DNA of 35,112 nt from an uncultured Clostridia bacterium. Lineage in GTDB: Bacteria > Bacillota > Clostridia > Oscillospirales > Oscillospiraceae. Within the stretch, counting starts at the first letter, position 1. Each line of letters opens with the position of its first letter. This document shows positions 567 to 28,460 of the stretch, piece by piece. Under the pieces are notes generated by a model. The model did not search any database, was not told the origin of the DNA, and saw nothing but the letters and a program-made list of their open reading frames with translations. Made by a program: the position numbers and the translations under genes. Location of the stretch: positions 1 to 35,112 of the forward strand of contig CALYTB010000007.1 in NCBI GenBank assembly GCA_945486035.1. Direction: 5' to 3'.

Positions 567-1865
567 ATGGATAAAATCACCCAAACCCGTGAAGTCCCCG
601 TCATCGGCAGCTACGATGTGGTCGTCTGCGGCGGCGGCCCTGCCGGCTGGATTGCGGCTGTGGCATCGGCCCGAAACGGTGCAAGAACCGCCATGATTGA
701 GCAGTTCGGCTTTCCCGGCGGTATGGCAACAGCCGGATTGGTGCTGCCCATCAGTGTCTTTACCTATAACAATAAACTGGTCTGCGGCGGGATCCCCTGG
801 GAATTTGTGAACAGAATGGAGGCAATGGGCGGCGCGCAGGTGGAAAAGCCCCTGGGCAATGTGGCCCATGACCCGGAAGTCTACAAGCTGACTGCCCAGC
901 GGATGCTGCTGGAAGCAGGTGTCCAGCTGCACTACCACGCCACCGTCACCGGCTGCAGCTATGAAAACGGTCACCTGACTCATGTGATCATGGACACCCG
1001 CAGCGGGCCAAAGGCGCTTGAGACAAGGTATGTCATTGATGCCACCGGCGACGGCGCCATCTGCGCCATGATGCATGTGCCCATGCAGGAGGCCGGAGAC
1101 CAGCCTCTGCAGCCCGCATCCCTGATCTTCTGCCTCGGCGGTGTGGATACGGACAATCTGCCGGTGGCGCACCACAATTTGCAGGGTGTCAATATGCACC
1201 ATGTTCCCCTCCAGAGAGCGCTGAGAGAGCTGGCAAAGACCGAGGAGGTTCCTCAATTCGGCGGCCCCTGGTTCTGCCACATTATGCATGACGGCTTTGT
1301 ATTGGTCAACGCGACCCGTACCTTCGCGGATATGACCAACCACCTGGATGCCACTGCCGCGGAGTGCAGGCTTCGGGAGGATGCCTATGTGCTGACGGAG
1401 TATTTCCGCCGCCTGGACCCCGTATTTCAGAATTGCTACCTGGCTTACACCGCACCCGTTTGCGGCACCCGCGAGACAAGGCATATCCGGGGCGCCCATA
1501 TCCTGACCGGCGAGGAATACCTCAACCGGGTTCATTTTGAGGATTCCATCGCCCGCAGCGCCCACCCCATCGACATCCACAGCGCCAATGACTCTCAGCA
1601 GCGCTGCACGTTTTTGGAGGATGCGGCGTACATTCCTTACCGCTGCCTGGTGGTTCCCGGTTTTGACAACCTGATCGTTCCAAGCCGCTGCCTGTCTGCC
1701 GACCAGATTGCTTCCGCATCCATCCGCGTTCAGGCACCTATCATGTGCCTGGGTCAGGCCGCTGGGCTGGCCGCCGCAATGTGCGCCCGAGACGGGATCA
1801 GTGTTCACGATGTGGACATTTCCGCAATGCGTGAGAAACTGATAAGCTGGGGCGTTGATATCTGA
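567..1865 (+). CDS. FAD-dependent oxidoreductase, paralog 1 (FAD_oxidored type)
   Basis: A predicted cytoplasmic flavoprotein of 432 residues. The ATG at 567 is chosen because AAAGGAG lies about 10 nt upstream; the frame is open further up, but that part overlaps the promoter. Visible elements are an N-terminal Rossmann motif GGGPAG (residues 22-27), the GFPGGMATAG loop, IDATGDGA in the middle, a GTRETRHIRG motif, a D-I-H motif, and the C-terminal segment YIPYRCL with GQAAGLAAA, which closes the FAD site in this family. It most resembles the paralog at 21742-23046 (shared TREVP/TREIP N-terminus). It is a single-gene unit followed by a strong terminator. The substrate is unknown. Family members are often misannotated as xanthan lyase, and nothing here supports a lyase. 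Confidence 0.85.
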   Translation: MDKITQTREVPVIGSYDVVVCGGGPAGWIAAVASARNGARTAMIEQFGFPGGMATAGLVLPISVFTYNNKLVCGGIPWEFVNRMEAMGGAQVEKPLGNVAHDPEVYKLTAQRMLLEAGVQLHYHATVTGCSYENGHLTHVIMDTRSGPKALETRYVIDATGDGAICAMMHVPMQEAGDQPLQPASLIFCLGGVDTDNLPVAHHNLQGVNMHHVPLQRALRELAKTEEVPQFGGPWFCHIMHDGFVLVNATRTFADMTNHLDATAAECRLREDAYVLTEYFRRLDPVFQNCYLAYTAPVCGTRETRHIRGAHILTGEEYLNRVHFEDSIARSAHPIDIHSANDSQQRCTFLEDAAYIPYRCLVVPGFDNLIVPSRCLSADQIASASIRVQAPIMCLGQAAGLAAAMCARDGISVHDVDISAMREKLISWGVDI

Positions 1866-1892
1866 GTGCCGCAAAATACAACCCGCAAAGCC

Positions 1893-1927
1893 AACGGAGG
1901 ATCCCGGTTTCGGGATCCTCCGTTTTT
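1893..1927 (+). terminator. Rho-independent terminator after FAD paralog 1
   Basis: A perfect 13-bp stem (1893-1905 with 1912-1924, arm AACGGAGGATCCC) closes a 6-nt loop and runs into a T tract at 1923-1927. It ends the transcript of the gene at 567-1865. Confidence 0.9.
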
Positions 1928-1940
1928 CGGTTGGAGTTTA

Positions 1941-2109
1941 TTAAGGCAACACCGCATAATGGGGCAAGGAGATTCGGCGAGAGATTTTGACCCAGGCGAA
2001 AGTATGGAAAATGCGGAAATACTGGATGTATTTCCCATTTTTCATACTGCACGATTGGGGCAAAAGATCCGCCGAAGCCCGCAGCACCCATTGTGCGGTG
2101 CTGCCTTAA
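1941..2109 (+). mobile_element. MITE-like palindromic element, copy 1
   Basis: A 169-bp segment bounded by TTAA on both sides, with imperfect terminal inverted repeats of about 22 bp starting TTAAGGCAACACCGCA. A second copy in the opposite orientation lies at 29391-29559. It has the same length and about 85% identity in an ungapped hand alignment. No transposase is encoded, so it would be moved in trans. The TTAA (or inner TA) ends look like a target duplication. This copy sits between the terminator of FAD paralog 1 and the converging 3' end of the epimerase gene, where it disrupts nothing obvious. Confidence 0.85.
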
Positions 2110-2110
2110 G

Positions 2111-2980
2111 TTATCCCATGACCTTACGCAGATAGGCAACGGAAGCGGCGGCATCCTGATCCAGCCGTTCTTCGGTGGCACCGTGGGACAGATCGCGCCA
2201 GATGGAAATGTCCTTGCCCACCTGACCGCCCATGGTGACAAAGGGCTCCATTACCACATAGCCGCCGTAATTGATCTGCTTCAGGGCTTGACCGATTTCG
2301 GCCCAGTCGAAACGGCCGCCGGGCCGCGGACAGCGGCGGTTTGCTTCCCCCACATGGAAATGTCCCAGCAGCGGCCCCGCCTGACGGATGGCATCCGTGA
2401 GAGAGTCCTCCTCGATATTCATGTGGAAGGTGTCCAGCATGACCTTGACATTGGGGCGGTCAACCGCCTTGACGTAATCGATGGCTTCGTAGGCTTCGTT
2501 GATCATGTAGCCTTCAAAGCGGTTCAGAGATTCCATGCAAAGCATGATGCCGTGGTCGGCAGCCATGTCGGCCAGACGCTGCATCCGGGCGATGGAGCGG
2601 GCGGTGTCGCCCGGTTTGTCCATGGGGGCGCTGAAATCCACGGGCCAGTAGGAGTACAGGGCGCCGCCGATGCGGTCGATGCCGGCAATCTCCATCTTGC
2701 GGAAAATATCGGCATAGAAATCAAAGGTCTTTTCCACAGCGGCTTCATCACGGCTCGCCAGATTGTGCTCGGGACGGGGACCGTATCCGCCGGTCAGAAT
2801 CATGCCGTTGGCATCGGCAGCAGCGCGCAGCTCGCGGAAGAAACGGTCATCCTCCAGATGGAACGCGCCGCAGGCAACCTCCAGCACATCAAAGCCCAGT
2901 CGTTTGCATTTTTCAACGTAGGGAACGAATTGACCGCCCCATTCCTTTTCCCAATAGGCGTAGTAGATACCGTATTTCAT
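2111..2980 (-). CDS. Ketose 3-epimerase (D-psicose / D-tagatose 3-epimerase family)
   Basis: A 289-residue TIM-barrel enzyme whose whole length matches the D-psicose (D-allulose) 3-epimerase family: MKYGIYYAYWEKEW at the N-terminus, GGALYSYWPVDFS near residue 105, LDTFHMNIEEDS near 182 and GHFHVGEANRR near 206. The four metal-binding and catalytic residues of the family are present as E150, D183, H209 and E245. It would epimerise C3 of a free ketohexose (fructose/psicose or tagatose/sorbose) with Mn2+ or Co2+ in the cytoplasm. It follows the zinc dehydrogenase gene on the same strand with a 13-bp gap, so the two are one operon, plausibly polyol to ketose to C3 epimer. The exact sugar cannot be told from sequence; related inosose or keto-glycoside enzymes share the fold. 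Confidence 0.88.
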   Translation of the reverse strand: MKYGIYYAYWEKEWGGQFVPYVEKCKRLGFDVLEVACGAFHLEDDRFFRELRAAADANGMILTGGYGPRPEHNLASRDEAAVEKTFDFYADIFRKMEIAGIDRIGGALYSYWPVDFSAPMDKPGDTARSIARMQRLADMAADHGIMLCMESLNRFEGYMINEAYEAIDYVKAVDRPNVKVMLDTFHMNIEEDSLTDAIRQAGPLLGHFHVGEANRRCPRPGGRFDWAEIGQALKQINYGGYVVMEPFVTMGGQVGKDISIWRDLSHGATEERLDQDAAASVAYLRKVMG

Positions 2981-2993
2981 TGCTTTCCTCCCG

Positions 2994-4013
2994 TTACACG
3001 TTCAGAATCACTTTCTGGACACTGTCACGGTTCTGCTCGATGTATTTATAGGCTTCGCTGACCTGCTCCAGCGGGAATTCTTTGGAGATCAGGGCCTGCA
3101 GATTGACCTTTTCTTCGGCCACCAGCCGGATGGCGGTCATGTAATCCTCGTGCCGATACATCAGTGTACCGTAGATTTCATATTCCCGGTCCTGAACCAG
3201 CCCCATCTCGATCTCGGGCTTGTGACCGTAGACGGCGACAATCACGAACTGCATCCCTTTGCGGCCGCAGCGCAGAATCTGATTCAGTGCGCCGCCGTTG
3301 GCGCTGCACTCAAAGCATACATCGATGCCGTCCTCTCCGAATTCACGGACCAGGACATCCTCCAACTTTTCGTTTTTCACATTGACGGTCACATCGGCAC
3401 CGCATTCCTTGGCCATGGACAGCTTGTAGTCGGAAACGTCGGAGATGATTACCTTGTTGGCGCCAAGGGCCTTGGCACTCTGCATGACCACATTGCCGAT
3501 GGTACCGGCACCGATCACCAGCACATTCTTGCCCTCCACACCGCCGGGGCGGCGGACGGCACCAACACCCACAGCCAGAGGCTCAATCACGGTGCCAACA
3601 TCATAGCCTACATTGTCCGGCAGCTTGTAGAGCAGATCCTCATCCGCCGCGTAGTAGTCGCAGCTGGCTCCGGGGGCCTGGCAGCCGTAGACATCCAGTG
3701 TTTTGCAGATGTTGTAGCGGCCCTCACGGCACATACGGCACTTGCCGCATACCTTCTGGGGACGCAGAAGTACACGGTCGCCGATCTTCAGATTCCGGAC
3801 CTCCGCGCCGACGGCGACCACTTCGCCGGTAGCCTCGTGGCCCTGAACCACAGGGAAGGAGATAAAGGGATGCTTGCCATAGTACGCGTGAATGTCCGAA
3901 CCGCAGATGCCGACGGATTTGACCTTCAGCAGTGCCTGCTTCGGGCCGTATTCCGCCATGGGGACTTCGCTGATTTCAAAGGTTTCGGCGGAGACCAAAG
4001 TTACCTGTTTCAT
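2994..4013 (-). CDS. Zinc-dependent medium-chain (sorbitol-type) dehydrogenase 1
   Basis: A 339-residue MDR-family enzyme. The catalytic zinc region is VGICGSDIH followed by GHEATGEV, the structural zinc loop is CGKCRMCREGRYNIC, and the nucleotide-binding motif is GAGTIG near residue 168. It is expected to oxidise a secondary alcohol of a polyol or sugar with NAD(P)+, or the reverse. The start has AAAGGA about 10 nt upstream. It is the first gene of a two-gene operon with the ketose 3-epimerase, so its product is probably a ketose. Threonine or galactitol-phosphate dehydrogenases are alternative subfamilies. Confidence 0.87.
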   Translation of the reverse strand: MKQVTLVSAETFEISEVPMAEYGPKQALLKVKSVGICGSDIHAYYGKHPFISFPVVQGHEATGEVVAVGAEVRNLKIGDRVLLRPQKVCGKCRMCREGRYNICKTLDVYGCQAPGASCDYYAADEDLLYKLPDNVGYDVGTVIEPLAVGVGAVRRPGGVEGKNVLVIGAGTIGNVVMQSAKALGANKVIISDVSDYKLSMAKECGADVTVNVKNEKLEDVLVREFGEDGIDVCFECSANGGALNQILRCGRKGMQFVIVAVYGHKPEIEMGLVQDREYEIYGTLMYRHEDYMTAIRLVAEEKVNLQALISKEFPLEQVSEAYKYIEQNRDSVQKVILNV

Positions 4014-4074
4014 AACAATATCATCCTTTCGAGATTGTTTTCATTGTGGAACGCTTTCCGGGTATTCTACGGGT

Positions 4075-4103
4075 AATGTACAAGGGTTTTCTTTGTTTGT
4101 CAA
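4075..4103 (-). promoter_or_regulatory. Sigma-A promoter of the dehydrogenase-epimerase operon
   Basis: On the minus strand TTGACA (4098-4103) and TACATT (4075-4080) are separated by exactly 17 bp. It lies about 60 bp upstream of the dehydrogenase ATG. The three-site direct-repeat operator seen elsewhere in this locus is not present here, so control may differ. Confidence 0.75.
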
Positions 4104-4217
4104 TGACTGATTTGTATGGCGTTACCAAAATCAATCGAATAAATGGACATGAATATAGCAAAATAAACAAAAATATACCCATCGGACAGGTGAAACTGCC
4201 CGATGGGGTATGGGGGG

Positions 4218-6029
4218 TCAGGGAGTATTCGGCGGAGCTTCGGAGATGCCCGCCGGAATGGAGATGGCGATGCAGGTACCAAAGCCTTCCCGGGAAAAGA
4301 TTTCAAACGCTCCGGCGCCTTTGCTGAAGATGGCAAGACGTTTGCGCACATTGCTGAGGCCATAGCCGATTGTTCCGTCCTTCAGAGCCCGGAGGGTATC
4401 CTCGTTCATACCGCTGCCGTTGTCCTCAATCTCGATGTGGACACTGCCGTCAGCGACCCATGCGCGCACAGACAGCTCTTTGTCCGGCTTTTCGCAATAG
4501 ACCAGACCGTGAAGCAGCGCGTTTTCCAGCAGCGGTTGCAGCGACAGCTTGGGGATCGGGTATTCCAGCACGGTATCCTCAATCTCATAATGGACGGTAA
4601 AGCGGTTTTTGAATCGGGTTTGCATAATGGAAACATAATTCCTGGACAGCTCCAGCTCGTCCTTCAGGGGGATGATGCCGGGGCCTTTGTTGATACTCTG
4701 GCGCAGATATTTGGACAGGGTATTGACCATCTGGGCGGCTTCGTCGTTTTTCTGATCCAGAATCATCCATTTGATGATGTCCAGGGTGTTGTAAAGAAAA
4801 TGCGGCTTGATCTGAGCCTGCAGGGACTTCATCTGGGATTCCGCGATGGTGATCTGATCCCGGTATTTGCTTTCCATCAGGTCCTTTACGGTCAGGACGA
4901 TTTGGTCGGCGTTCCGCTCCAGCTGGTGCAGCGGGTTCGGTAACTGCGGTATCTCCTCCGGGATGCCGTTATCGCCGGTGTTCAGCACATCCAGCGTTGA
5001 ATTGATGCGGGACACAGTGGCACTGATTGTATAGTTATAAGCCAGAATGAATACCAGTGTCAGGGAAATAATCAGCATAACGGTGATCAGAACATACATG
5101 GCGTTTCCCTGTGTGCTGTTGGAAACGGAGAGGATATCTGCCGGGTAGTTCATAACCACAAACCAGTCATTGTAGTCCAGTTTCCGGAAAACATATATCC
5201 GTCCGGCATCGGACAGACTGCCGGATGTATCCTCCCGCATCCGCTCCATCAGTTCCGGTTCGATTACGGTTTGCCGGATCAGACTGTGATCCGGGGAGGC
5301 AAGGCAGATGCCCCCCGCATTGACCAGATACCCTGTACAGTCCATGGCATCGTCCGCCGCGATGATTTCGTCAAATTTGGTGGCTTCTATGTCCAGCATC
5401 AGCACACAGGCCAGAGCATCGTAGTCACTGCGGTGGCGTATGGTGTGGGTGATGGTCAGAACCTCGGCATATTCCGGGTTGCCGCGGGGACTCTTGCTCA
5501 GAGCGGCCAAATGGGTTTCCAGCCATTGAATACCAATCTGCCGGAAGTAGGCAGGGTTCTTCACACCCGGCACATCCTTGAGCGCGCTCAGCGGATAATA
5601 GGTGTCGGCCTGGTGGCTGTAGATCTTAACGTCAGGCAGATACAGCCGCACATTGGCGATATCCTCATGGGCGGTGTATGTGGACAAAATCGCGTTCAGC
5701 TCCGTGTATTCCGTAAACTGTTCGGAAAGACCGGCATCCGAATGGGTGTAGGGATAGATCATGCTGATCAGGTTTTCGTCCAGCTGCTGCATACTGCGCA
5801 GACGGAAGTCGATATTGATTTGCCGCTGCTCCACACCGTGCTGCAGACTGCGGTTGATATCCTCTTCCAAATACTTGGTGGACAGTCTCAGGAGCACGAG
5901 AATACAAACCAGCGATAGGGTCACCAGCATCACCATGATGGATAAGTTTCGGGTCCAAACGCCTTTGACACCTGTCCGTTTCAGTATTTTATCCCGGATG
6001 GAAGGCGTGAGTGACCATTTGAAGGGCAT
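4218..6029 (-). CDS. Sensor histidine kinase, YesM type
   Basis: A 603-residue membrane kinase. One transmembrane segment (about residues 28-48), a large extracytoplasmic sensing region (about 50-310, cache-like by length and position), a second membrane segment (VLITVMLIISLTLVFILAY), a HAMP-like linker, then a His_kinase domain with QIKPHFLYNTLD (the phospho-accepting His) and an ATPase domain with LLENALLHG, DNGSGM and GYGLSNVRKRL. The second ATG (6029) is preferred over 6038 because AAAGG sits directly against the first ATG but 9 nt from the second. The gene follows its response regulator with a gap of about 40 bp. YesM-type kinases usually sense carbohydrates outside the cell; the ligand here is unknown. 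Confidence 0.93.
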   Translation of the reverse strand: MPFKWSLTPSIRDKILKRTGVKGVWTRNLSIMVMLVTLSLVCILVLLRLSTKYLEEDINRSLQHGVEQRQINIDFRLRSMQQLDENLISMIYPYTHSDAGLSEQFTEYTELNAILSTYTAHEDIANVRLYLPDVKIYSHQADTYYPLSALKDVPGVKNPAYFRQIGIQWLETHLAALSKSPRGNPEYAEVLTITHTIRHRSDYDALACVLMLDIEATKFDEIIAADDAMDCTGYLVNAGGICLASPDHSLIRQTVIEPELMERMREDTSGSLSDAGRIYVFRKLDYNDWFVVMNYPADILSVSNSTQGNAMYVLITVMLIISLTLVFILAYNYTISATVSRINSTLDVLNTGDNGIPEEIPQLPNPLHQLERNADQIVLTVKDLMESKYRDQITIAESQMKSLQAQIKPHFLYNTLDIIKWMILDQKNDEAAQMVNTLSKYLRQSINKGPGIIPLKDELELSRNYVSIMQTRFKNRFTVHYEIEDTVLEYPIPKLSLQPLLENALLHGLVYCEKPDKELSVRAWVADGSVHIEIEDNGSGMNEDTLRALKDGTIGYGLSNVRKRLAIFSKGAGAFEIFSREGFGTCIAISIPAGISEAPPNTP

Positions 6030-6073
6030 AGGCGTCATCCTTTCGTGGGCAGGGGTTGTCCGTGGCCGGTCAG

Positions 6074-7684
6074 CTAGTCGGAGCTTCCTTTGTAGTTTTC
6101 ATTCTGAACCAGGAAGCGGTACTCTCCGGGGGGCATACCGGTCTGCTTCTTGAACAGCTTGGAGAAATAGCTGGGGGAGAGGTAGCCTACCTGATAGCAG
6201 ATATCGTACAGGCGGACGGAGGGATCCCGCAGCAGCTGCTTGGCGTGCCGGATTCGCTCGTTGGTCAGATATTCGTTGATGGTTTTTCCGGTAGCCTGCT
6301 TGAACAGAACGCAAAGATAGGTGGGGGTCAGATGCACCTGCGCCGCAAGGCTGGATACGGAAATCTGCTCCATATACTGCTCATCGATGATGGATTTGAT
6401 CTGACGGATGATGGTGCTGGTGCCCGGTTCCCCGGTATCCAGCAGGATTTCCGTGGATTCGGTCATGATCTGAAGGAGGAATTGCTCCTGCTCCACATGG
6501 GAAGGGCAGTTCAGCCAATGCTCCACCAGCTTGCGCTGGTTCCGGTAGGGGCTGCCGGGCTGTGCCTTCAGCCCGGACACGGCACGGGCAGGAAGCAGCA
6601 GCAAAAACAGCATGAAATTGTCCTGGTCCTCCTCCGAAAGGGAGCGAATGTAGGAAAACGCACGGTTCAGTACATCACGGACCTGAGAAACCTGGCCGCT
6701 GAGAATCGCCTCCGGCAGCTGCTTTTCCGCCAGGTCCCGGGCTGCTTTCTGATCCTGCACCTCCGCATATTTGGTAACGGCGATGGAAGAATCCTCCGCC
6801 AGATAGTAGCGCTGCTCCAGGGCCTCGCAGGCTTCGGCGAAGGCGCTGGGAAAAGCGGATGGCAGCGCGGGCTCGCTGATGCCGATGGCTGTCTCTACAT
6901 CCAGCTGGTCCAGCAACCCCTTTTGAATCCGTCCCGAAACCTCCAGCACATCCTGCTCATAATCCGGGGCTTCGCACCGCAGAATGATGACATACTCCGA
7001 GGTTCGGTTTTTGAACAGGAAGCTTCCGGGAACGGCCTCAAGAGCCTCCCCGGCGATCCGCTCAATTTCCATACCCAGAGCCAAGCGCTCCGGGCCGGTC
7101 ATGTTCTTTACGACAACCCATTTTCGCACCAGGCGAAGGACCATGCACACATAGCGGGCGGACAAATCCAGATTCAGTCCCAGATAGGACATGCTGACCA
7201 GATCCGCGTCATCGGTCAGAAGGGTCTGCAATACCTGCTCCCGGTATATGGGCATCAGCTCGTGCAGCCGGGTTTCCATGGAGCTGACCCGTTTGCTTTC
7301 CGCGTTTCGGGCATCCAGCAGCTTTACCACCCGGGAGATGGTGGCGGACAGCTCGTTTAAGTCAACGGATTTGAGAATGTAGTCGATGGCATCGGTTTTG
7401 AGCGCTTCGCGCAGCAGCTGCACATCGGCGTGGCCGCTGATAAATACGATTTGGATGGCGGGGAACTCCGCACGCAGCTTTTTGGCCAGGGTGATGCCAT
7501 CCATGTAGGGTGTGATGACATCTGTGACCACCAGATCTACGGAGTTGACCTGAATGAAATCGTATGCCTTCGCGCAGTCCGGAAACTCCGCGATGATCTG
7601 AACGCCGTGCATGATCCAGTCGAAATGCTCCAGCAGACCGGAACGCACGGTTTCCTCGTCATCGATAATGATTGCTTTGTACAT
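6074..7684 (-). CDS. Response regulator, YesN type (receiver + AraC DNA-binding domain)
   Basis: A 536-residue regulator. The N-terminal receiver has the acidic pair D8-D9, phospho-acceptor D55 (VVTDVITPYMDG) and K105. A long middle domain (about 120-430) precedes the C-terminal AraC-type double helix-turn-helix (SSLAAQVHLTPTYLCVLFK and DICYQVGYLSPSYFSKLFKK). GGGAGG lies just upstream of the ATG. It is transcribed before the kinase gene and divergently from FAD paralog 2. As the only AraC-type regulator in the window, it is the best candidate for binding the repeated operators at 7789-7817, 11719-11747 and their minus-strand equivalent near 26661-26689. Confidence 0.93.
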   Translation of the reverse strand: MYKAIIIDDEETVRSGLLEHFDWIMHGVQIIAEFPDCAKAYDFIQVNSVDLVVTDVITPYMDGITLAKKLRAEFPAIQIVFISGHADVQLLREALKTDAIDYILKSVDLNELSATISRVVKLLDARNAESKRVSSMETRLHELMPIYREQVLQTLLTDDADLVSMSYLGLNLDLSARYVCMVLRLVRKWVVVKNMTGPERLALGMEIERIAGEALEAVPGSFLFKNRTSEYVIILRCEAPDYEQDVLEVSGRIQKGLLDQLDVETAIGISEPALPSAFPSAFAEACEALEQRYYLAEDSSIAVTKYAEVQDQKAARDLAEKQLPEAILSGQVSQVRDVLNRAFSYIRSLSEEDQDNFMLFLLLLPARAVSGLKAQPGSPYRNQRKLVEHWLNCPSHVEQEQFLLQIMTESTEILLDTGEPGTSTIIRQIKSIIDEQYMEQISVSSLAAQVHLTPTYLCVLFKQATGKTINEYLTNERIRHAKQLLRDPSVRLYDICYQVGYLSPSYFSKLFKKQTGMPPGEYRFLVQNENYKGSSD

Positions 7685-18141: not shown

Positions 18142-19170
18142 ATGATTGGTGCGTATTTCCTGGGCAACAAAACAATTGAAACCCGTCCGCTGAACCTGCC
18201 GGAACCGGGGGAGGGACAGGTTCTGCTGCGGGTCTGCGCCTGCGGTGTCTGCGGTACGGATGTCCATATTTATGAAGGCGGCAAGGGAAGCGCGGATGTG
18301 ACCCCGCCCGTCATTCTGGGCCACGAATTTTCGGGCTACGTTGAGAAAATCGGACCCGGGGTGGAAGGCTTGCAGGTTGGACAGTTGGTTACCGTGGACC
18401 CCAATATCTATTGCGGGAAGTGCCGTCCGTGCCGTCAGGGTCAGAAGCAGATGTGCCATCACATGGAAGCTGTGGGTGTCACCATGGACGGCGGCTTTGC
18501 CGATTACTGCCTTGCACCTTACGCCCAGTGTGTGGCGGTCCCTGAAAACACCGACCCCGAGCTTGCCGCCATGGCGGAGCCCATTGCCTGCTGCCTCCAT
18601 GGGATTGACCGGGTCGGCATCCGTCCCGGTGAGAATGTGCTGGTGGTGGGCGGCGGCACCATCGGTCAGATCATGCTTCAGCTGGCTCGCAATGCGGGCG
18701 CGGCAAAGGTCGTTCTCAGCGAGCCTGTGGAAAAACGCCGGCAGCTGGCAGTAGCGCTTGGGGCGGATGCGGCGATTGACCCGATCAACGAAAACATAAA
18801 TGAACGGCTACAAGACATTTTGGGCTGTGAAGGTGCCGATGTGGTCATCGAGTGTGTCGGTAACCCCAGGACCTCCGCGCAGGCCATCGATGCTGCTGCC
18901 AGATGCGGCCGTATCATGCTCTTCGGAGTTCCCCATCCCGAAGCCGTTCTTCAGACGAAAATGCACCCCATTTTCCAGAAGGAACTGACCATCATGGGCT
19001 CCTTTGTTAACCCGGACACCCAAAGCCGTGCCGTGGCACTGATTGCATCCGGCCGCCTGAAGCTGAAGCCGCTGATTACCCATCGATTCCCTGTGTCCCA
19101 GCTTGAGGAAGCGATCAGGATGCAGATGGGTCCCGATTCCATCAAAGTACTTGTTGTGACGGAGGGGTGA
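18142..19170 (+). CDS. Zinc-dependent medium-chain dehydrogenase 2
   Basis: A 342-residue MDR enzyme. The ATG at 18142 has GGAGG about 10 nt upstream. It carries CGVCGTDVH and GHEFSGYV around the catalytic zinc, CGKCRPCRQGQKQMC for the structural zinc, AEPIACCLHG and the nucleotide motif GGGTIG. It belongs with sorbitol- or threonine-dehydrogenase-like enzymes and should oxidise or reduce a hydroxyl or keto group with NAD(P). Its stop codon lies only a few bases from the start of FAD paralog 5, which suggests coupled translation and consecutive steps on one substrate. Confidence 0.87.
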   Translation: MIGAYFLGNKTIETRPLNLPEPGEGQVLLRVCACGVCGTDVHIYEGGKGSADVTPPVILGHEFSGYVEKIGPGVEGLQVGQLVTVDPNIYCGKCRPCRQGQKQMCHHMEAVGVTMDGGFADYCLAPYAQCVAVPENTDPELAAMAEPIACCLHGIDRVGIRPGENVLVVGGGTIGQIMLQLARNAGAAKVVLSEPVEKRRQLAVALGADAAIDPINENINERLQDILGCEGADVVIECVGNPRTSAQAIDAAARCGRIMLFGVPHPEAVLQTKMHPIFQKELTIMGSFVNPDTQSRAVALIASGRLKLKPLITHRFPVSQLEEAIRMQMGPDSIKVLVVTEG

Positions 19171-21078: not shown

Positions 21079-21678
21079 ATGAGAATCTATGTGATCCGCC
21101 ATGGTCAGTCGGAAGCGAACCTGCTGGAAGCCCATGCGGGATGGGCGCAGGTTTCCTTAACGCCGGAGGGCATGGCACAGGCCGCCGCCGTAGGGCAGCG
21201 GCTGAAAGAAGTACGGTTTGATAAGGTGATTGTCAGCGACCTGCTGCGGGCGCAGCAGACAGCGGCGTTGGCACTGCCTGGTTATGAATACCAGACCGAT
21301 TGGCGCATCCGGGAGATTTCTGTCGGTTCTCTGATGGGCCGGCGTGTTGCGGACTGCGCGGCACAGCTGGGGGAGCCCTATCTGCGGCACCGTTCCGCCC
21401 GGGATTTTACGGCCTACGGCGGGGAAAACCCGGAACAGATGCAGCGCAGGGTTTCGGAGTTTCTGGAGGACCTGACAAAAGAACCGCCGGAAGCCAGAAT
21501 TGCGGTTGTATGTCATGAAGGCGCCATGTACAGTATGCTGTGCCATGTTCTGAAGTGCAAGCTGCCCTATCTGGCTGCCTATGCGGATAACGGCGGCATC
21601 TGCGTTTTTTCTTACCGGTCCGGTCGCTGGGTACTGAACAAATGGAACGAGACCGGACGGTTGGAGCCCGAAGCCTGA
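21079..21678 (+). CDS. Histidine phosphatase family protein
   Basis: A 199-residue phosphoglycerate-mutase-like phosphatase. RHGQSEAN places the phosphohistidine at H8, and the second catalytic His is in VVCHEG (H146). R7, an Arg near residue 57 (LLRAQQT) and Glu80 in WRIREISVG complete the usual site. It would remove phosphate from a small metabolite, perhaps a sugar phosphate formed in this pathway, though the substrate is unknown. A GC-rich imperfect hairpin lies between it and the preceding FAD gene (about 21027-21058), which may dampen its expression. FAD paralog 6 follows after about 60 bp. Confidence 0.86.
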   Translation: MRIYVIRHGQSEANLLEAHAGWAQVSLTPEGMAQAAAVGQRLKEVRFDKVIVSDLLRAQQTAALALPGYEYQTDWRIREISVGSLMGRRVADCAAQLGEPYLRHRSARDFTAYGGENPEQMQRRVSEFLEDLTKEPPEARIAVVCHEGAMYSMLCHVLKCKLPYLAAYADNGGICVFSYRSGRWVLNKWNETGRLEPEA

Positions 21679-21741: not shown

Positions 21742-23046
21742 TTGAATACAATTGCCTATACCAGAGAGATCCCTGTTCGAAAGAGCTACGATGTGATTGT
21801 CTGCGGTGCCGGGCCTGCGGGGATCTGCGCCGCGGTCGCGGCTGCGCGGCAGGGAGCAAAGACAGCCCTGCTGGAGCGTTACGGTATTCCCGGCGGCAAT
21901 CTGACATCCGGCCATGTCGGCCCCATTTTGGGCAGCGTGAGCAAAGGCACGATGCGTGACGAGGTGTGCACACTGCTGGGGGTCCGGGACAATGATATGG
22001 ACGGGAAAACCGGGGTTGCCCACGATATGGAGAAAGCCCGCATCGCACTGGTAGAATGGATTGATCACGAGAATATCGATGTGTATTTGCAGACCATGGT
22101 TTCGGATGCCGTGATGGAGGGAAATACCGTCAAGGGAGTCATCCTTTCCACCAAGGAGGGTCTTCAGGCGCTGACAGCTTCTGTTGTGATCGATGCCACC
22201 GGCGACGGCGATGTGGCCTGCTTTGCCGGCTGCGAGTTTGAGAAGGGGCGCGATGACGGACTGATGCAGCCTGTGACACTGGAGTTTACGCTGGATAACG
22301 TGGATGAGGAGCGGGCAATTCTCTGCATCGGGGATATTGACGATGTGCAGTTTCATGGTCAGCGATTTCTGGATTGGTGCAAGCAGCAGGCGGAGGCTGG
22401 CGCGCTTCCGAAAAACGCCGCCGCAGTGCGCCTGCATCCAACGGTCTACAAAGGCTCCCGCCAGGTCAATACCACACAGGTCAACGGCTGCGACAGCACC
22501 AAGCTGGAGACGGTCTACGAAGCGGAGCTGGAGCTTCGCCGTCAGATCAGATTACTGCAGAACTTCTTCCGGGAAAACCTGCCCGGATATGAAAACTGCA
22601 AGCTTGTCGGCTCCGCCAGTACCACGGGCATCCGGGAATCCCGGCGCATTTTGGGCGAGTACGTGATTACAGCGGAGGAGCTGGCGGTAGGAAAGCGCTT
22701 TGAGGATGTGATCGTCCACAAGGCCGATTTCCTGGTGGACATCCACAATCCCACCGGCTCCGGACAGGCCGAAAAAAAGATACAGTACTGTATCCCTTAC
22801 GATTTGCCGTACCGCTGCTTTGTGCCCAGAAGGATTGACGGCCTGTACACCGCCGGGCGCTGTATTTCCGGCACACACCGGGCGCACGCATCGTACCGTG
22901 TGATGTCCATCTGCATGGCCATGGGGGAGGCGGTTGGTGTAGCTGCTGCCATGTGCGCCGAAAACGGCTGCACGCCCAGGAGTCTGAATGTCAAGGCACT
23001 TCAGGAAAAACTGACCGGGATGGGGATTGACCTGTTCAGCGAGTAA
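21742..23046 (+). CDS. FAD-dependent oxidoreductase, paralog 6 (TTG start)
   Basis: A 434-residue flavoprotein. The start is TTG at 21742, fixed by AAGGAGGG 6 nt upstream (21728-21735); no in-frame ATG fits as well. Motifs are GAGPAG near residue 22, GIPGGNLTSGH, IDATGDGDVA, GIRESRRILG, a D-I-H motif followed by NPTGSG, and a C-terminal part with PYRCFVP and GEAVGVAAA. It is most like paralog 1 (shared TREIPV N-terminus). It is the last gene of the unit that begins with the DUF624 protein and is followed by a strong hairpin. Confidence 0.87.
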   Translation: MNTIAYTREIPVRKSYDVIVCGAGPAGICAAVAAARQGAKTALLERYGIPGGNLTSGHVGPILGSVSKGTMRDEVCTLLGVRDNDMDGKTGVAHDMEKARIALVEWIDHENIDVYLQTMVSDAVMEGNTVKGVILSTKEGLQALTASVVIDATGDGDVACFAGCEFEKGRDDGLMQPVTLEFTLDNVDEERAILCIGDIDDVQFHGQRFLDWCKQQAEAGALPKNAAAVRLHPTVYKGSRQVNTTQVNGCDSTKLETVYEAELELRRQIRLLQNFFRENLPGYENCKLVGSASTTGIRESRRILGEYVITAEELAVGKRFEDVIVHKADFLVDIHNPTGSGQAEKKIQYCIPYDLPYRCFVPRRIDGLYTAGRCISGTHRAHASYRVMSICMAMGEAVGVAAAMCAENGCTPRSLNVKALQEKLTGMGIDLFSE

Positions 23047-23130: not shown

Positions 23131-23907
23131 TCAGAAGCAGGTAAACGCGCCATCGATGACGAAATCGGAGCCGGTGGTAAAGGAGCTTGCATCCCCGGCA
23201 AGATAGACGGCGATGGCCTGCAGCTCCTCCGGCTTGCCCAGACGGTGCAGGGGCGCCAGCTCATTCCACTTCTCAATCAGCGGGATCAGAGTGGGGCTGT
23301 TCAGAGTCAGATCGGTACCGATGTAGCCGGGGCTGATGCTGTTGACCCGGACACCCCGGGTGGCCCACTCGATGGCCAGCGATTTTGTCAGCTGAATGAC
23401 ACCGGCCTTGGAAGCGTTGTAGTGGCACTGGGGCTGGGGCACATTGACAATGTGGGCGGACATGGAGGCGGTGTTGATGATGGAACCATAACCCTGCTTC
23501 AGCATCTGCCTGCCCGCAGCCTGATTGGTCAGGAACATGCCGTTGAGATTGACATCGATAACCTTCTTCCAGCACGCGTAGCTCATTTCCTCGGCGGGAA
23601 CGTTGGTGCAGATTCCGGCATTGCAGAATGCGGCATCCAGCTTGCCGAAGGCGGCGAGAAATGTATCCATCATGGCATGGACGGATTCTTCGTCGGTAAC
23701 GTCACACCGGATGGCAAGGAACCGCCTGCCGGTTTCGGCAGCCAGAGTCGCGGCGGTCCGCTCCGCGGTCTCCAGATCCATGTCCACGATGGCAACATCC
23801 GCTCCGGCTTCCGCTACGGCCTTGGCATAGTTCATGCCGATGCCCCGGGCTCCGCCGGTGACAAAAATGGACTTTCCGTCCAGACGCATTTTTTCCAGAA
23901 TACCCAT
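23131..23907 (-). CDS. Short-chain dehydrogenase/reductase
   Basis: A 258-residue classical SDR. TGGARGIG (17-24) is the cofactor motif, CNAG lies near residue 96, N120, S148 and Y163-x-x-x-K167 are the catalytic residues, and SPGYIGTDL follows. Asp41 after the second strand (VDMD) suggests NAD rather than NADP. The family includes polyol and sugar-alcohol dehydrogenases such as xylitol, sorbitol and gluconate 5-dehydrogenase types. It is third in the minus-strand operon that begins with the FAD gene at 26411 and runs through the erythritol-dehydrogenase-like gene. Confidence 0.9.
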   Translation of the reverse strand: MGILEKMRLDGKSIFVTGGARGIGMNYAKAVAEAGADVAIVDMDLETAERTAATLAAETGRRFLAIRCDVTDEESVHAMMDTFLAAFGKLDAAFCNAGICTNVPAEEMSYACWKKVIDVNLNGMFLTNQAAGRQMLKQGYGSIINTASMSAHIVNVPQPQCHYNASKAGVIQLTKSLAIEWATRGVRVNSISPGYIGTDLTLNSPTLIPLIEKWNELAPLHRLGKPEELQAIAVYLAGDASSFTTGSDFVIDGAFTCF

Positions 23908-23940: not shown

Positions 23941-25014
23941 TCAGAAGGTGAACGCGACCTTAAAATCGCCGTATTTGCCCGTTGCGCAGTCAAAGGCCTC
24001 TTGCCAGTCTTCCAGCCGGAAGGTCTTGGAAACCACGCCGTTGGTTTTCAGATTGCCCTTGAGGATGTTCTCAATGACAAAGGGATAGGCGTAGGGACTC
24101 AGGTGGGCACCCAACACATCCAGTTCCTTGCGGTCGCCGATAATGGACCAGTCCACGGTGGTCTCTTTGCCGAATACGGAGAATTCCACAAAGGTGCCCA
24201 GCTTGCGGATGATGCTCAGGCCCTGAACCACGCTGGCGGGATTGCCGGTGGCTTCGATGTAAATATCACAGCCATAGTTCTCGGTCAAAGCCATAATCTG
24301 GGCGTTCAGGTCGCACTTTCCGGGGTTGAATGCCAGATCGGCGCCGAATTCCTTTGCCTTTTCCAGACGGTTGTCCTGCATATCCAGAGCAATCAGCAGC
24401 TTGGGATTCTTCATTCTGGCGTAGGTGACCATGCCCAGTCCCAGCGTGCCGCAGCCGGAGATGACGACCACATCCTCATTGGTGATTCCGGCCCGGTCAA
24501 CGCAGTGCTTGGAGCAGCCGTAGGGCTCAATGAGCAGCGCGTCCGCAATGGACATCTCCTCGGGCACCCGGGACAGAACCGCGTTCTTTGGGTAGCGGAC
24601 ATACTCAGCCATGCCGCCGTTATTGGTGTGCTGGAAGCCAAAGATGTTGTGGGGCTGGCACATCCAGTAGCGGCCGGTCTTGCAGAAACGGCACTCGCCG
24701 CAGGGAACGATCTGGTCGGCGGTCAGCCGGTCACCCAGCTTATACTCGGTGACATTTTCGCCAACCTCCACAACACGGCCAAAGAATTCGTGGCCCGGAA
24801 TGAAGGGGGGCTTGACCCAGGAGGGCTGCACATCGTCACCCCAGAACATGGCGGCACCGTGGCTGCACTTCAGATCACCGGCGCAGATGCCGCAGGCTTC
24901 GGTTTTGATGATGATGTCATCAGGCCCGCATACGGGGGTGGGGTAGTTAAGCTCCAGTTTGTATTCGTCTTTGCCGTAGGCAACCAGCGCCTTCATTGTT
25001 TTGGGAATGCTCAT
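23941..25014 (-). CDS. Zinc-dependent dehydrogenase 3, erythritol/L-threitol dehydrogenase-like
   Basis: A 357-residue MDR enzyme. The start at 25014 (MSIPKTMK) is chosen because GGAGG lies 8 nt upstream. The earlier ATG at 25047 would overlap the preceding stop. CGICAGDLK, MFWGDDVQPSWVK, PGHEFFGRV, CGECRFCKTGRYWMC and the cofactor motif SGCGTLG recall the group annotated as erythritol/L-threitol dehydrogenases. It would interconvert a short polyol and a ketose with NAD(P). It lies between FAD paralog 7 and the SDR, so all three probably act on one compound. The assignment to erythritol itself is only by family resemblance. Confidence 0.85.
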   Translation of the reverse strand: MSIPKTMKALVAYGKDEYKLELNYPTPVCGPDDIIIKTEACGICAGDLKCSHGAAMFWGDDVQPSWVKPPFIPGHEFFGRVVEVGENVTEYKLGDRLTADQIVPCGECRFCKTGRYWMCQPHNIFGFQHTNNGGMAEYVRYPKNAVLSRVPEEMSIADALLIEPYGCSKHCVDRAGITNEDVVVISGCGTLGLGMVTYARMKNPKLLIALDMQDNRLEKAKEFGADLAFNPGKCDLNAQIMALTENYGCDIYIEATGNPASVVQGLSIIRKLGTFVEFSVFGKETTVDWSIIGDRKELDVLGAHLSPYAYPFVIENILKGNLKTNGVVSKTFRLEDWQEAFDCATGKYGDFKVAFTF

Positions 25015-25043
25015 TGTCTTTTCCTCCATTCTAACTGCGTTTA

Positions 25044-26411
25044 TCAATGTTCCTTTATGACTGCGCCCTGCTCCACAAGGGTTTTGCGGAGCAGATCCAC
25101 AGAAATCTCCTCGGGCTTCACATTTTGCTTTACGGCAATGGCTGCGGCAGTACCGGCGGCCTGTCCGGTGGCCATGCAGGCGGGCATGACCCGGTAGCTG
25201 GCGGCGGCCTCAGAGCTGCCGCAGATGCAGCGGCCGGCAACCAGCAGATTACTGCAGTTTTCCGGCAGCAGGCTCCGGTAGGGGATGGTATAATACCGAT
25301 CCACCAGGGTCCATGTGACACCGCCACCCTGAGAATCGTGCCTGTCCAGGGCGTAGCCAAAGGTGCAGATGGCATCTTCGAAGATTTTGCGATGCAGAAC
25401 ATCGTCGGTGGTCAGTTCATATTTGCCCACAATATGACGGCTCTCCCGGACACCCAGAGAGGGTGCCACCTGAATCAGCTGAACGTTTTCACAACCGGGG
25501 ATGTACTTGCGCATAAAACAGAGCACTTCCTGCACCTGCCGGCGGCCCTCCATCATGGCACGGCTGACCTGCTCGGTGTTGGTGGCATCTACATAGGACA
25601 TCCGGGTGGTGTTGACCTTCCAGCGGCCGGGAATGTTCTGCTCATACATTCCCAGTTCGTTCTTATCCAGATCCCAGTCCCCGTTGGCCTTCGCCTCCCG
25701 AACCTTCCAGGAGTAGCAGTTGCCCATGTGGTTGTCCAGCTGATCCTTCCGCTGCTCCAGTTCCGCGCAATAGGCCTCCCGGTCCACGTTCCCAACCTCG
25801 AAGAACAGGGAAGCGGGCTGGCTCACGCCGGTCTTTCGGTCGCCGGTCCAGGTGGGGACACCGGAGCGCACTGCCAGATCGGCATCTCCTGTGCAGTCGA
25901 TAAAGCATTTGGCACGGATGGCTGCCAGCCCCTCCTTCATCAGCACGATGGCGTGGGTGATGCGCTCTCCATCCATCCGAACATCCGCCAACCGGGTGCC
26001 GAACAGTACCTGAACCCCGGCCTCGGTGACCATTTCGTCCATTACTGTGGCAAGGATTTCCGACTGATAGGGGGTCACGCCCTCGTGACTGCCCAGAAAA
26101 TAGGAGTTGTAACCGCACATACCCCGGATCTTGGAGGGATGAATGGCACCGCCCCGGGCTTCGGTGCGCAGGCACAGCTCGTCAAAGATCCCTTTGACCA
26201 CCTGCTCCGTCACGTCGTTGTCGTAGCAGGTCATAAACGGCCCTACCAGACCGGAGGTAGCCATGCCGCCAAGGACACTGTTCTGTTCGATCAGCAGGGT
26301 CTTTGCCCCGTTTCGCGCGGCGGCTACCGCGGCGCTGAAGCCTGCCGGACCGCCGCCCACCACCAGTACATCCACCTGATAGCGTTCAGAAATTTCACAA
26401 GTATACCGCAT
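25044..26411 (-). CDS. FAD-dependent oxidoreductase, paralog 7
   Basis: A 455-residue flavoprotein. The start at 26411 ([12 protein letters not shown]) is chosen because GGAGG lies a few nt upstream, while the ATG at 26585 has no ribosome binding site. Motifs are [15 protein letters not shown], the loop [35 protein letters not shown], and YTIPYRSL with GQAAGTAAA. It is clearly the sister of paralog 8 (27087-28460), sharing [26 protein letters not shown] and the C-terminus, so the pair arose by duplication. It is first in an operon with dehydrogenase 3 and the SDR under shared operator copy 3. Confidence 0.88.
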
Positions 26412-26626
26412 ACAAGCCCTCCATTCGGATACGGAACCGGAAGTTTCGGAGTATCCGTAATCGTGTTTCGCAGAACCGCATATCCTGTACCCAGATCGTC
26501 CGCAACGTAAGAATCCGTTGCCAGTTCGAAGGGGAGCGACTGTGTTCACCGCAGAGCGCTGAGAAGGTGCGGATATGTTATTCATCGTATTTTTGGATAC
26601 AGATTTTATCGGTGCTGTATGCGTTC

Positions 26627-26689
26627 ATTTTACAACTTTGTGAATCCACAGTAAACATTTCATATTTTCGATTTGTTGTCCAAACTTTC
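26627..26689 (-). promoter_or_regulatory. Shared operator-promoter, copy 3 (drives FAD paralog 7, dehydrogenase 3 and SDR)
   Basis: Read on the minus strand it carries GAAAGTTTG and, 20 bp on, GAAAATATG. The 13-nt core CAACAAATCGAAA (26666-26678) ends 10 nt before TTTACT (-35, 26650-26655), and TAAAAT (-10, 26627-26632) follows after 17 bp. It matches copy 2 almost base for base from the first half-repeat to the -35, and the same -35 and -10 hexamers are used. The transcript would have a leader of about 210 nt. Confidence 0.8.
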
Positions 26690-26872
26690 AAAAATTTGTA
26701 AAATATGAATTGTACATCACAGTAATCAGTTGAGGAATTTATATATTTCGCACAAATCAGCTGAGATTGCACCTGATATCCCAGCCTCTCTGCCATCCGA
26801 AAAATTCAGCGGCAGATAGCCTGCCGCTGAATCAATCATTCTATGCGCATACCGGCTTAGGCCAGCAGATTG

Positions 26873-26977
26873 ACAAATTGGTGTTTGTCGGGCTGTCTCC
26901 AGGTTTCCTGTTATTGCGAGAGAGTAGCGCACACTGGCTCGCAATGACAGCGAATATTTGACAAACAACAATTTGCC
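26873..26977. repeat. Composite palindromic repeat, copy C (short form)
   Basis: A 105-bp short form: ACAAATTGGTGTTTGTCG at one end and CAAACAACAATTTGCC at the other, with CTGTTATTGCGAGAGAGTAG and CACTGGCTCGCAATGACAGC between. The central part found in copies B and D is missing, so this is the minimal unit of the family. Confidence 0.82.
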
Positions 26978-27086
26978 GGGCAGCTGGGTAAAACCGATAA
27001 ACACTTATTTTTATGTGATACATTTTGAACCGGCAGTCTCAATGGCCTCCATGATAATCAGAGCGGAAGTTTTCTGGCAAACTGTC

Positions 27087-28460
27087 TTAGTCCTTTATGA
27101 CAGCGCCTTGCGAGGTCAACGTCCGGCGCAGCAATTCTACATCCACATCCGCAGCTTCAACACCGCACTTGAGCGCAAGAGCAGCCGCTGTACCGGCTGC
27201 CTGACCCAGGGCAATGCAGCAGGGCATTACACGATAACTGGCGGCGGCTTCCGAGGACCCGCTGATGCTTCGACCCGCAACCAACAGGTTTTCACAATCC
27301 ACCGGTACCATACAGCGGAAGGGGATGGTGTAGTAATGGTTGACCTCCTGGAACACGCCTCCATTGCCCTGAGGGTCATGAATGTCTACCGCGTAGCCAA
27401 ATGTGCAGATTGCATCGTCAAAATGCTTTTGTGCCATGATATCTTCAACGGTCAATGTGTACTTACCGACAATGTGTCGGGTTTCCCGGACACCCAGCGC
27501 CGAAGCAACCTGAATCAGCTCCGCGTTCTGACAGCCGGGAACATATTTGCGCAGAAAGGCCATGACCTGCTGAACCTGGTTTCTGCCTTCGATCAAGCCT
27601 CTGGTGATATCCTCAGTTTTGGTGGCATCAATTCCGGCAATCCGGGTAGTGTTCATCTTCCAGCGGTTCGCCACAGGCTGCTCGTAATTGCCGATTTCGT
27701 CCCGCTCCAGTGCCCAGTCGCCGTTATCACGGGCCTGCGCAATAGACCAGCTCCAGCAGTTGTGACTTGGAATCCCCAACTGACCGGCTTCCTTTCTCGC
27801 TTCCAGTTCCCCAACAAACTGTCCGCGCTCTACATTGCCGATTTCAAAAAACAGGGAAGCAGGCTGCATCTGCCCGCTGCGCTCGTCACCCATCCAGGTG
27901 GGGACACCGGCAAAGTAGGCTACATCAGCATCACCGGTGCAGTCGATAAAGGTTTTGGCGCGGAACAGTGCCAGACCTTCCTTCATCACCGCCACTACGC
28001 CGGTGATCCGTTCCTCTTCTTTCACAACGTCACAAACCTGCACGTTGAAAAGCAGCCGAACACCGGCTTCCAGCGCCATCTCATCCATCACAACCGCAAG
28101 CGTTTCGGACTGGAAGGGTGTCACATGGCGGTGGGAACGGATATAGTAGGAGCTGTAGGTGGTCATGCCCTCCACCTTGGAGGGGTGAATGGCTCCGCCA
28201 CGGGCTTCGGTACGCAGGCACAGTTCGTCAAAGATTCCCTTAACGATCTGCTCCTGACCATCGTCATCATAGCAGGTCATAAATGGACCCACGAGACCGG
28301 CAGTGGCCATACCGCCAAGCATTGCGTTTCGCTCGATGAGCATTGTTGACGCGCCGTTTCTGGCCGCAGCCACTGCCGCGCCGAACCCCGCGGGGCCGCC
28401 GCCGATGACGAGAACATCCGCGGTGAATTCCCGCGCTACTGTTTTGGAATAGGTAAACAT
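27087..28460 (-). CDS. FAD-dependent oxidoreductase, paralog 8
   Basis: A 457-residue flavoprotein. ATG at 28460 (MFTYSKTVAREF) is preferred over 28466 because AAAGGAG is too close to the latter. Motifs are [46 protein letters not shown], a D-I-H motif followed by DPQGNGG, and YTIPFRCM with GQAAGTAAA. It is the close sister of paralog 7. It lies downstream of the broken XdhC and interrupted MOSC genes on the same strand. The shared operator is absent here, so it may be transcribed by read-through or from an unseen promoter. Confidence 0.87.
   Translation of the reverse strand: MFTYSKTVAREFTADVLVIGGGPAGFGAAVAAARNGASTMLIERNAMLGGMATAGLVGPFMTCYDDDGQEQIVKGIFDELCLRTEARGGAIHPSKVEGMTTYSSYYIRSHRHVTPFQSETLAVVMDEMALEAGVRLLFNVQVCDVVKEEERITGVVAVMKEGLALFRAKTFIDCTGDADVAYFAGVPTWMGDERSGQMQPASLFFEIGNVERGQFVGELEARKEAGQLGIPSHNCWSWSIAQARDNGDWALERDEIGNYEQPVANRWKMNTTRIAGIDATKTEDITRGLIEGRNQVQQVMAFLRKYVPGCQNAELIQVASALGVRETRHIVGKYTLTVEDIMAQKHFDDAICTFGYAVDIHDPQGNGGVFQEVNHYYTIPFRCMVPVDCENLLVAGRSISGSSEAAASYRVMPCCIALGQAAGTAAALALKCGVEAADVDVELLRRTLTSQGAVIKD

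Follow-up and report, generated by a model that had tools for sequence, protein, structure and literature searches.

Why should a single bacterial locus encode eight related flavoenzymes of the FAD_oxidored family (PF12831)? The locus examined here lies in a stretch of 35,112 bp (the window), which is an entire contig (C7) of an incomplete genome bin from an uncultured Clostridia bacterium of the Oscillospiraceae. The bin comprises 2.46 Mb in 273 contigs and is 78% complete, with 4.9% contamination. An earlier note, made from the letters of the window, had proposed that the locus uses several enzymes of differing specificity to handle a polyhydroxylated compound. The gene company supports this, with specificities that probably differ, and the interpretation as a whole is partly supported by our analysis. 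With a probability of roughly 60%, we read the locus as an enlarged version of a conserved catabolic system under two-component control, one that rearranges an imported polyhydroxylated compound into ordinary ketoses for phosphorylation.

Composition of the locus

Pfam scans covered 40 of the 75 window open reading frames (ORFs) of at least 100 amino acids (aa), on both strands. PF12831 was detected in eight of them (F1 to F8, with E-values from 3.9e-86 to 2.2e-131), which is the number given before, and all eight pass the gathering score of 27 bits with 290 to 439 bits. The bin holds 10 full-length PF12831 genes (E <= 1e-50), eight of which are in the window; when 10 genes were placed at random in 200,000 runs, eight fell within 27.8 kb 0 times. 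The array lies where the earlier note had put it (567..28460), except that F8 starts near 28463, and one flavoenzyme is indeed frameshifted, the N-terminus of F4 giving a second PF12831 match in another frame (15562-15633). The partner genes were also as described. Pfam identified three medium-chain dehydrogenases/reductases (MDR; mdr1 to mdr3), a short-chain dehydrogenase/reductase (SDR), a ketose 3-epimerase (epi), a phosphatase, the LplB and LplC permeases with a solute-binding protein, the YesM/YesN two-component system and a YesL-like protein (Table 1).

None of the 40 ORFs scanned encodes an aldolase, a glycoside hydrolase, a sugar kinase or the ATPase of an importer. The lack of all four had been reported before and holds for these ORFs, but that of kinases is only local, since orthologous loci carry PfkB or FGGY kinases. 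A Gram-positive polysaccharide utilisation locus is expected to combine a carbohydrate ABC importer and a regulator with at least one glycan-degrading enzyme. The window has the importer (LplB, LplC and binding protein) and the regulator (YesM/YesN); families of glycoside hydrolases and polysaccharide lyases are absent from the scanned ORFs. The contig looks native to its bin, because two same-genus genomes have a cysK with 92-93% identity to that of the window and because the dispersed repeats of the window are found again on many further contigs of the bin; that it is a foreign contig contaminating the bin is unlikely on the same grounds.

Relationships among the flavoenzymes

An N-terminal G[AG]GxxG dinucleotide motif is present in all seven intact flavoenzyme genes and, for F4, in the other frame, and the GxRE[ST]R and DxH motifs are kept in all eight. 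As assessed by a rough hydropathy scan, none of the flavoenzymes has an export-like N-terminus. Local BLAST identity is 23-48% in 27 of the 28 paralog pairs, over short stretches in some of them, and 63% in the remaining pair, F7/F8. Two trees were built, a careful one of 67 sequences and a quick one of 99. In both, F1, F2, F4, F6 and F7/F8 fall into five clades common to other genera, each with a bootstrap of 100 in the careful tree. Orthologs can be paired one to one most clearly for F2, F4 and F7/F8, and the clades of F1 and F6 contain extra copies (from RUG10934 and Ruminiclostridium hungatei) and inner splits. F3 and F5 form a distant clade of long forms, for which the tree tool gave a long-branch warning. 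Recent tandem duplication of one flavoenzyme is ruled out by the pairwise identities and both trees, the only closer pairs being F7/F8 and F3/F5 (48%). The array consists of old separate lineages and is not a recent tandem expansion.

Against the genome bin SUG741, the ratio of nonsynonymous to synonymous substitution (dN/dS, NG86) is 0.05-0.20 for all eight genes, values that are rough because dS is near or above 1, and all eight look to be under purifying selection. F4 has a dN/dS of 0.09 over the 416 aa past its frame break and an intact ORF of 474 residues in SUG741, which makes an assembly error or a recent event the probable origin of the break. The family is large, with 7147 of 8000 candidates scored for F8 being relatives. 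In literature word searches, FAD_oxidored and PF12831 each occurred in one flavoproteome paper only, and no title on this locus was among the matches listed, subscription papers and supplements being outside the scope of these searches.

Conservation of the gene set across genera

When reference genomes were scanned once with an F7/F8 alignment, 211 relatives were confirmed. The best 80 of them were analysed further, each within a stretch no longer than ~21 kb; some of these stretches end at contig or stretch limits, so that genes may be unseen. Neighbouring genes were assigned partly by Pfam and NCBIfam (selected ORFs) and partly by best BLAST match to window or seed proteins, and MDR assignments are approximate. 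As judged by these assignments, the gene set is conserved across genera, in R. cellulolyticum, R. papyrosolvens, R. hungatei, FC6, DTU059, SUG741 and SUG1096, with its order largely kept. This is the opposite of the finding that the earlier note had named as speaking against it, namely genes that are not conserved together.

The three Ruminiclostridium species share a simpler core, composed of F7-F2-epimerase, YesN/YesM and LplB-LplC-binding protein-F4-F6-F1-MDR. In R. cellulolyticum H10 the order is epi-F2-F7 and, divergently, yesN-yesM-LplB-LplC-binding protein-F4-F6-F1-mdr3-mdr2-PfkB, and this 15-kb locus holds all but one of the six PF12831 genes that the strain has (E <= 1e-40). The core is also found in FC6, with MDR genes placed differently, and in a sister genome, G300; in DTU059 it is on two contigs. 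SUG741 has all eight flavoenzymes at 74-88% identity, with F8/F7 on a separate contig from the other six. SUG1096 has seven of the eight over three contigs, the first with yesN-yesM-mdr1-epi, F1, a ROK protein and mdr3, the second with F2-F3-LplB-LplC-binding protein, and the third with F4 (a contig-end piece)-YesL-mdr2-F5-F6-F7-SDR. The YesM sensor is 51% identical in SUG1096 and SUG741, as against 73-91% for the enzymes, and signal sensing may therefore be diverging faster than chemistry.

Among the best 80 of the 211 relatives, at least two flavoenzymes occur in 39 stretches, at least three in 18 and at least four in 7, and a simple rule for core synteny (F4 with the binding protein, or F2 with epi) picks out 8. 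One survey of array size scored ~4 candidates per genome and yields lower bounds, all candidates having been scored for H10, SUG741, RGIG3310 and RUG10934. The last, a Clostridiales bin, has a different array of eight flavoenzymes in 30.5 kb, and RGIG3310, from goat reticulum, has six in 22 kb, both with mostly different importers; we take the RUG prefix to denote rumen genomes. An array unique to the source genome is thus ruled out by SUG741, with its eight flavoenzymes, and by RUG10934, with another eight.

PF12831 matches (1e-50) were found in 18 of the 41 same-genus genomes sampled, and more than three only in the genomes of the window (10) and SUG1096 (9). In a sample of the family, 26 of 101 genomes had PF12831, with a maximum of six apart from that of the window. 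Distribution of the locus is therefore patchy. A phage module was rejected, with no match to F8 at 1e-20 in 50,697 phage records. A plasmid module was rejected too: at 1e-40, 22 of 72,556 plasmid records have matches, at one place each and distant (under 60%); two were examined.

A D-psicose 3-epimerase in the orthologous locus

The ketose 3-epimerase of the earlier note can be specified further. The window protein scores 435.6 bits with the NCBIfam equivalog NF051856, whose cut-off is 300, and its residues E150, D183, H209, E244 and R215 are identical in H10, SUG1096 and FC6; we take these to be the metal/substrate ligand and catalytic positions of D-psicose 3-epimerase. By score and residues, it is a member of the D-psicose 3-epimerase family. 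The D-psicose (allulose) 3-epimerase of R. cellulolyticum H10 (PDB 3vni, 7e9w) has the same NCBIfam family and active-site positions, and its gene lies within the orthologous locus. From its start Met onward, the protein encoded there matches 7e9w without a single difference, and the 3vni entries score alike. According to the portions of the sources available, this enzyme has been expressed for D-psicose production, with activity reported (PMC6260708), and its gene is Ccel_0941 (PMC8576529). In those portions it figures as an isolated production enzyme, its gene context not being described. Out of six Ccel_094x/0950 locus tags sought in the literature, only Ccel_0941 was found, in PMC8576529. 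Epimerase hits were obtained in 36 of 391 genomes in a survey of the class and in 2 of 398 in a sample of the phylum.

In H10, PF12831 genes are linked by synteny with a well-studied epimerase as well as with sugar kinases, an importer and a two-component system, and the locus of this cellulose-degrading organism houses the enzyme that industry uses for allulose. Gene inactivation works in H10, according to the parts of PMC4780118 and PMC8576529 available, and the natural job of both enzyme families is therefore testable. The H10 locus offers a direct route to the role of the flavoenzyme family and to the natural role of the allulose-making epimerase.

Kinases and a possible exit of carbon

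PfkB is encoded in the orthologous loci of H10, G300, R. hungatei and SUG741, and FGGY in those of R. hungatei, FC6 and SUG741, the last in one cluster with F8 and PfkB. The PfkB of H10 is closest to solved fructokinases (1.9e-47), and the FGGY of R. hungatei reaches 347 bits with a xylulokinase model, under its cut-off of 380. The locus of G456 contains a UlaE-type L-ribulose-5-phosphate 3-epimerase, over its cut-off. More distant loci with F7-like enzymes have FGGY or PfkB kinases, a mannitol-dehydrogenase-family protein, other AP_endonuc_2 proteins and LplBC-like importers. These kinase and epimerase neighbours in relatives suggest that carbon would leave through ketohexose and ketopentose phosphates.

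A proposed pathway and its difficulties

From this gene company we infer a substrate, individual reactions, an order of steps and an electron acceptor. The binding protein and LplBC would import a polyhydroxylated, probably plant-derived compound, which may be a di- or oligosaccharide, a glycoside or of polyol size, with an ATPase encoded elsewhere presumably powering import. An oligosaccharide-sized substrate is suggested because the binding protein is distantly kin to 5g62/5g5y and AlgQ2 and because the available part of PMC5663094 describes binding proteins of family 1 as binding oligosaccharides. In the cytoplasm, the divergent flavoenzymes would act as position-specific, flavin adenine dinucleotide (FAD)-dependent sugar or polyol oxidoreductases, each with its own carbon position or sugar. 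The nicotinamide adenine dinucleotide (NAD)-dependent MDR and SDR enzymes would work with them, so that the compound is oxidised and re-reduced. D-psicose 3-epimerase would set C3 of the resulting ketose, which may be D-allulose, converted to D-fructose, or else, for example, a pentulose. The ketose would then be phosphorylated by PfkB or FGGY kinases, which relatives encode within the locus.

A bolder version is doubtful. In strict anaerobes, rare sugars or glycosides would be broken down by redox chemistry and no hydrolase, with FAD enzymes oxidising and re-reducing one molecule at several carbons and electrons returning to keto-sugar intermediates with no external acceptor; D-psicose 3-epimerase would be the native step to fructose metabolism. 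By analogy, a keto-sugar accepting electrons from reduced FAD would need no partner protein, 3-oxo-glucose presumably being the acceptor in the DgpA system.

Several observations weigh against the preferred explanation, that is, catabolism of an imported polyhydroxylated compound to ketoses. Two concern the enzymes themselves. Among the best 60 of 186 structure hits for F8 and the best 60 of 158 for F3, none covers the whole flavoenzyme, matches being mainly to the N-terminal FAD-binding region, and our searches found no PF12831 enzyme with a known reaction. Others concern gene company. A single flavoenzyme is seen in 41 of the 80 stretches of relatives. A flavoenzyme lies within ~1.5 kb either side of the D-psicose epimerase in 9 of 31 loci, including that of the window; the flanks of the other 22 are free of flavoenzymes, and wider stretches around other loci or second epimerase copies have one in only 2 of 11. 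The link between epimerase and flavoenzymes is therefore not obligatory, and the idea that the former always lies beside the latter is ruled out. The window itself has no kinase. The FGGY of SUG741 has a single match in the bin of the window, a 58% paralog on another contig, around which no genes of the locus are recognised. A hydantoinase gene stands beside the kinases in the F8/F7 cluster of SUG741, and an F8-like gene (L022, 77%) lies beside hydantoinase, peptidase M19 and GDSL genes; a purely sugar-based interpretation leaves these neighbours unexplained. Finally, other distant FAD genes have GH130 or uronate genes nearby, and some have sulfatase genes. Hydantoinase, sulfatase, GH130 and uronate neighbours together mean that the PF12831 family as a whole serves more than one pathway.

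Alternative explanations

Plain alditol catabolism is possible, if rather unlikely. Sugar alcohols would be imported, and each flavoenzyme, MDR or SDR would be an alditol-to-ketose dehydrogenase for a different stereochemistry, which agrees with the sorbitol-, galactitol- and mannitol-dehydrogenase-like MDR and SDR enzymes, the ketose 3-epimerase, the fructokinase- and xylulokinase-like kinases in relatives and a mannitol-dehydrogenase-family neighbour in L042. The importer fits it less well, as it is LplABC-like with a SBP_bac_1 binding protein, a type more often used for oligosaccharides, and eight flavoenzymes with four NAD dehydrogenases exceed what alditol loci are known to need.

Hydrolase-free, redox-neutral glycoside breakdown is unlikely. 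Here the flavoenzymes would oxidise ring hydroxyls (such as C3), the keto-sugar would destabilise its linkage and, once released, would re-oxidise FAD, as in a transhydrogenase with bound cofactor. The 40 scanned ORFs include neither a glycoside hydrolase nor an electron-transfer protein family, and the binding protein matches PF01547, of the oligosaccharide-binding type cited above. These ORFs also contain no Gfo/Idh enzyme and no recognisable 3-keto-glycoside lyase, and epi is by sequence a ketose 3-epimerase, all of which argues against such breakdown. So does DgpA, which we take to be of another fold family than the window flavoenzymes. In favour, 3-oxo-glycosides are intermediates in the DgpA/DgpBC C-glycoside system, and a title cited in the accessible part of PMC11170127 pairs both enzymes with 3-oxo-glucose.

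A role outside sugar metabolism is very improbable. The flavoenzymes would then reduce xenobiotics, steroids or some other terminal acceptor, as the known flavin reductases of the gut do. Flavocytochrome c fumarate reductases are among the best N-terminal sequence matches, and F8-like genes have the hydantoinase and peptidase neighbours; the recurring company is nevertheless one of sugar importers, kinases and epimerases, and the scans found no FMN-binding or cytochrome family in 40 ORFs and, roughly, no export-like N-terminus. A redundant or decaying array of paralogs with no distinct functions, to which the F4 frameshift in this assembly and the fragmentary xdhC beside the array might point, is weakened almost to the point of dismissal by the low (if rough) dN/dS values, the motifs kept in all eight genes, their separate old clades and the intact F4 of SUG741.

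Comparison with known systems

The xyloglucan and cellodextrin (cua) loci of R. cellulolyticum, as described in the parts of PMC4780118 and PMC5663094 available, have the same layout of two-component system and ABC permeases with binding protein in related hosts, and the xyloglucan locus, like the window, has no ATPase gene nearby. They differ in having glycoside hydrolases or a phosphorylase, whose place in the present loci is occupied by a ketose 3-epimerase and NAD dehydrogenases together with five to eight flavoenzymes. In the dgpABC/dfg C-glycoside cleavage system of gut bacteria, according to the accessible text of PMC11170127, a redox enzyme oxidises the sugar before its partner acts, as is proposed here. 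That system is distinguished by DgpBC together with a Gfo/Idh enzyme; the 40 window ORFs include no Gfo/Idh family, and no search was aimed at DgpBC. We assume the dgpABC oxidoreductase to be of Gfo/Idh type. The inositol pathway of Thermotoga (IolM, IolO) shares an MDR and an AP_endonuc_2 epimerase with the window, the similarity to both models being weak. Seven window proteins were scanned and all stay below the equivalog cut-offs, the three MDRs scoring 175-235 bits vs 450 and the epimerase 105 vs 300. The Thermotoga pathway is not known to include flavoenzymes.

Genes of the array and minor observations

Table 1. Genes of the flavoenzyme array, with positions in the window
Gene	Position	Strand	Evidence
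F1, FAD_oxidored flavoenzyme	567..1865	+	PF12831 E 1e-102; 81% to SUG741, 82% to SUG1096; dN/dS 0.13
epi, D-psicose 3-epimerase-type ketose 3-epimerase	2111..2980	-	NF051856 435.6 bits vs cut-off 300; ligand residues conserved
mdr1, sorbitol-dehydrogenase-like zinc MDR	2994..4013	-	ADH_N/ADH_zinc_N; best PDB match sorbitol dehydrogenase (2.3e-58); 90% in SUG1096
YesM-type sensor histidine kinase	4218..6038	-	PF06580 + PF02518
YesN-type AraC response regulator	6074..7684	-	PF00072 + PF12833
F2, FAD_oxidored	7927..9327	+	PF12831 E 6.1e-112; clade of 8 rows, support 100/99; ortholog adjoins epi in Ruminiclostridium
F3, FAD_oxidored with C-terminal DUF7402	9364..11304	+	PF12831 E 3.9e-86; PF24135
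LplB-type importer permease	11832..12824	+	PF00528; 70-71% in Ruminiclostridium loci
LplC-type importer permease	12840..13766	+	PF00528; 60-61% in Ruminiclostridium loci
Solute-binding protein, lipoprotein-like N-terminus	13844..15439	+	PF01547; distant PDB kin 5g62/5g5y, AlgQ2 (E 1.5e-13 and weaker)
F4, FAD_oxidored, frame broken near N-terminus	15517..16895	+	PF12831 E 1.1e-103; intact 474-aa ORF in SUG741
YesL-like DUF624 membrane protein, start uncertain	17285..18103	+	PF04854; 61% in SUG741 and SUG1096
mdr2, zinc MDR	18142..19170	+	Pfam; 84% in SUG741 and SUG1096
F5, long FAD_oxidored, 48% identical to F3	19175..21025	+	PF12831 E 6.2e-90
Histidine-superfamily phosphatase	21079..21678	+	PF00300
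F6, FAD_oxidored	21742..23046	+	PF12831 E 6.2e-113
SDR, polyol-dehydrogenase-like	23131..23907	-	PF13561/PF00106; PDB matches include putative polyol, galactitol and mannitol dehydrogenases
mdr3, zinc MDR	23941..25047	-	Pfam; 70-76% in orthologous loci of other genera
F7, FAD_oxidored	25044..26411	-	PF12831 E 2.2e-131
F8, FAD_oxidored, 63% identical to F7	27087..28463	-	PF12831 E 4.7e-127; 88% in SUG741

In SUG741 and SUG1096, no phosphatase gene separates F5 from F6, and in the arrays of RUG10934 and RGIG3310 a 40% homolog comes after a flavoenzyme gene. Hydantoinase-type genes lie upstream of F8-like genes in two genomes (L022, 7097-9424; L023, 4974-7202). GDSL genes also adjoin flavoenzymes in SUG741 and, judging from best hits, in RUG10934 and RGIG3310. 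On a Paenibacillus cellulositrophicus plasmid (L185), a distant FAD_oxidored gene comes directly after a two-component system, an importer and a GH130 gene, and before a GDSL hydrolase gene. On plasmid pPP2 of Persicobacter psychrovividus (L186), another accompanies sugar isomerase, SDR, ROK, creatininase-family, Eda, AGE-epimerase and mannonate dehydratase genes, which is another sugar-catabolic setting.

No RNA family at gathering score and no tRNA was found in the window. Just outside the array, an XdhC-like gene (28483-28839) is a fragment, with an intact XdhC of 315 aa in SUG1096; the order XdhC-MOSC-cysK is common to both, and no flavoenzyme was recognised on that SUG1096 contig. A dispersed element of 170 bp lies at 1941-2110, with an inverted copy at 29390-29559 (85% alike), and occurs in 16 places of at least 139 bp on 14 contigs of the bin. 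The inverted copy is inside the MOSC ORF, whose SUG1096 counterpart lacks the element. A second family of short dispersed repeats (16989-17112, 26872-26978, 32260-32432 and 34948-35111) has at least 40 places of at least 127 bp in the bin, 40 of 509 candidates having been scored, and may be a cause of the fragmented assembly.

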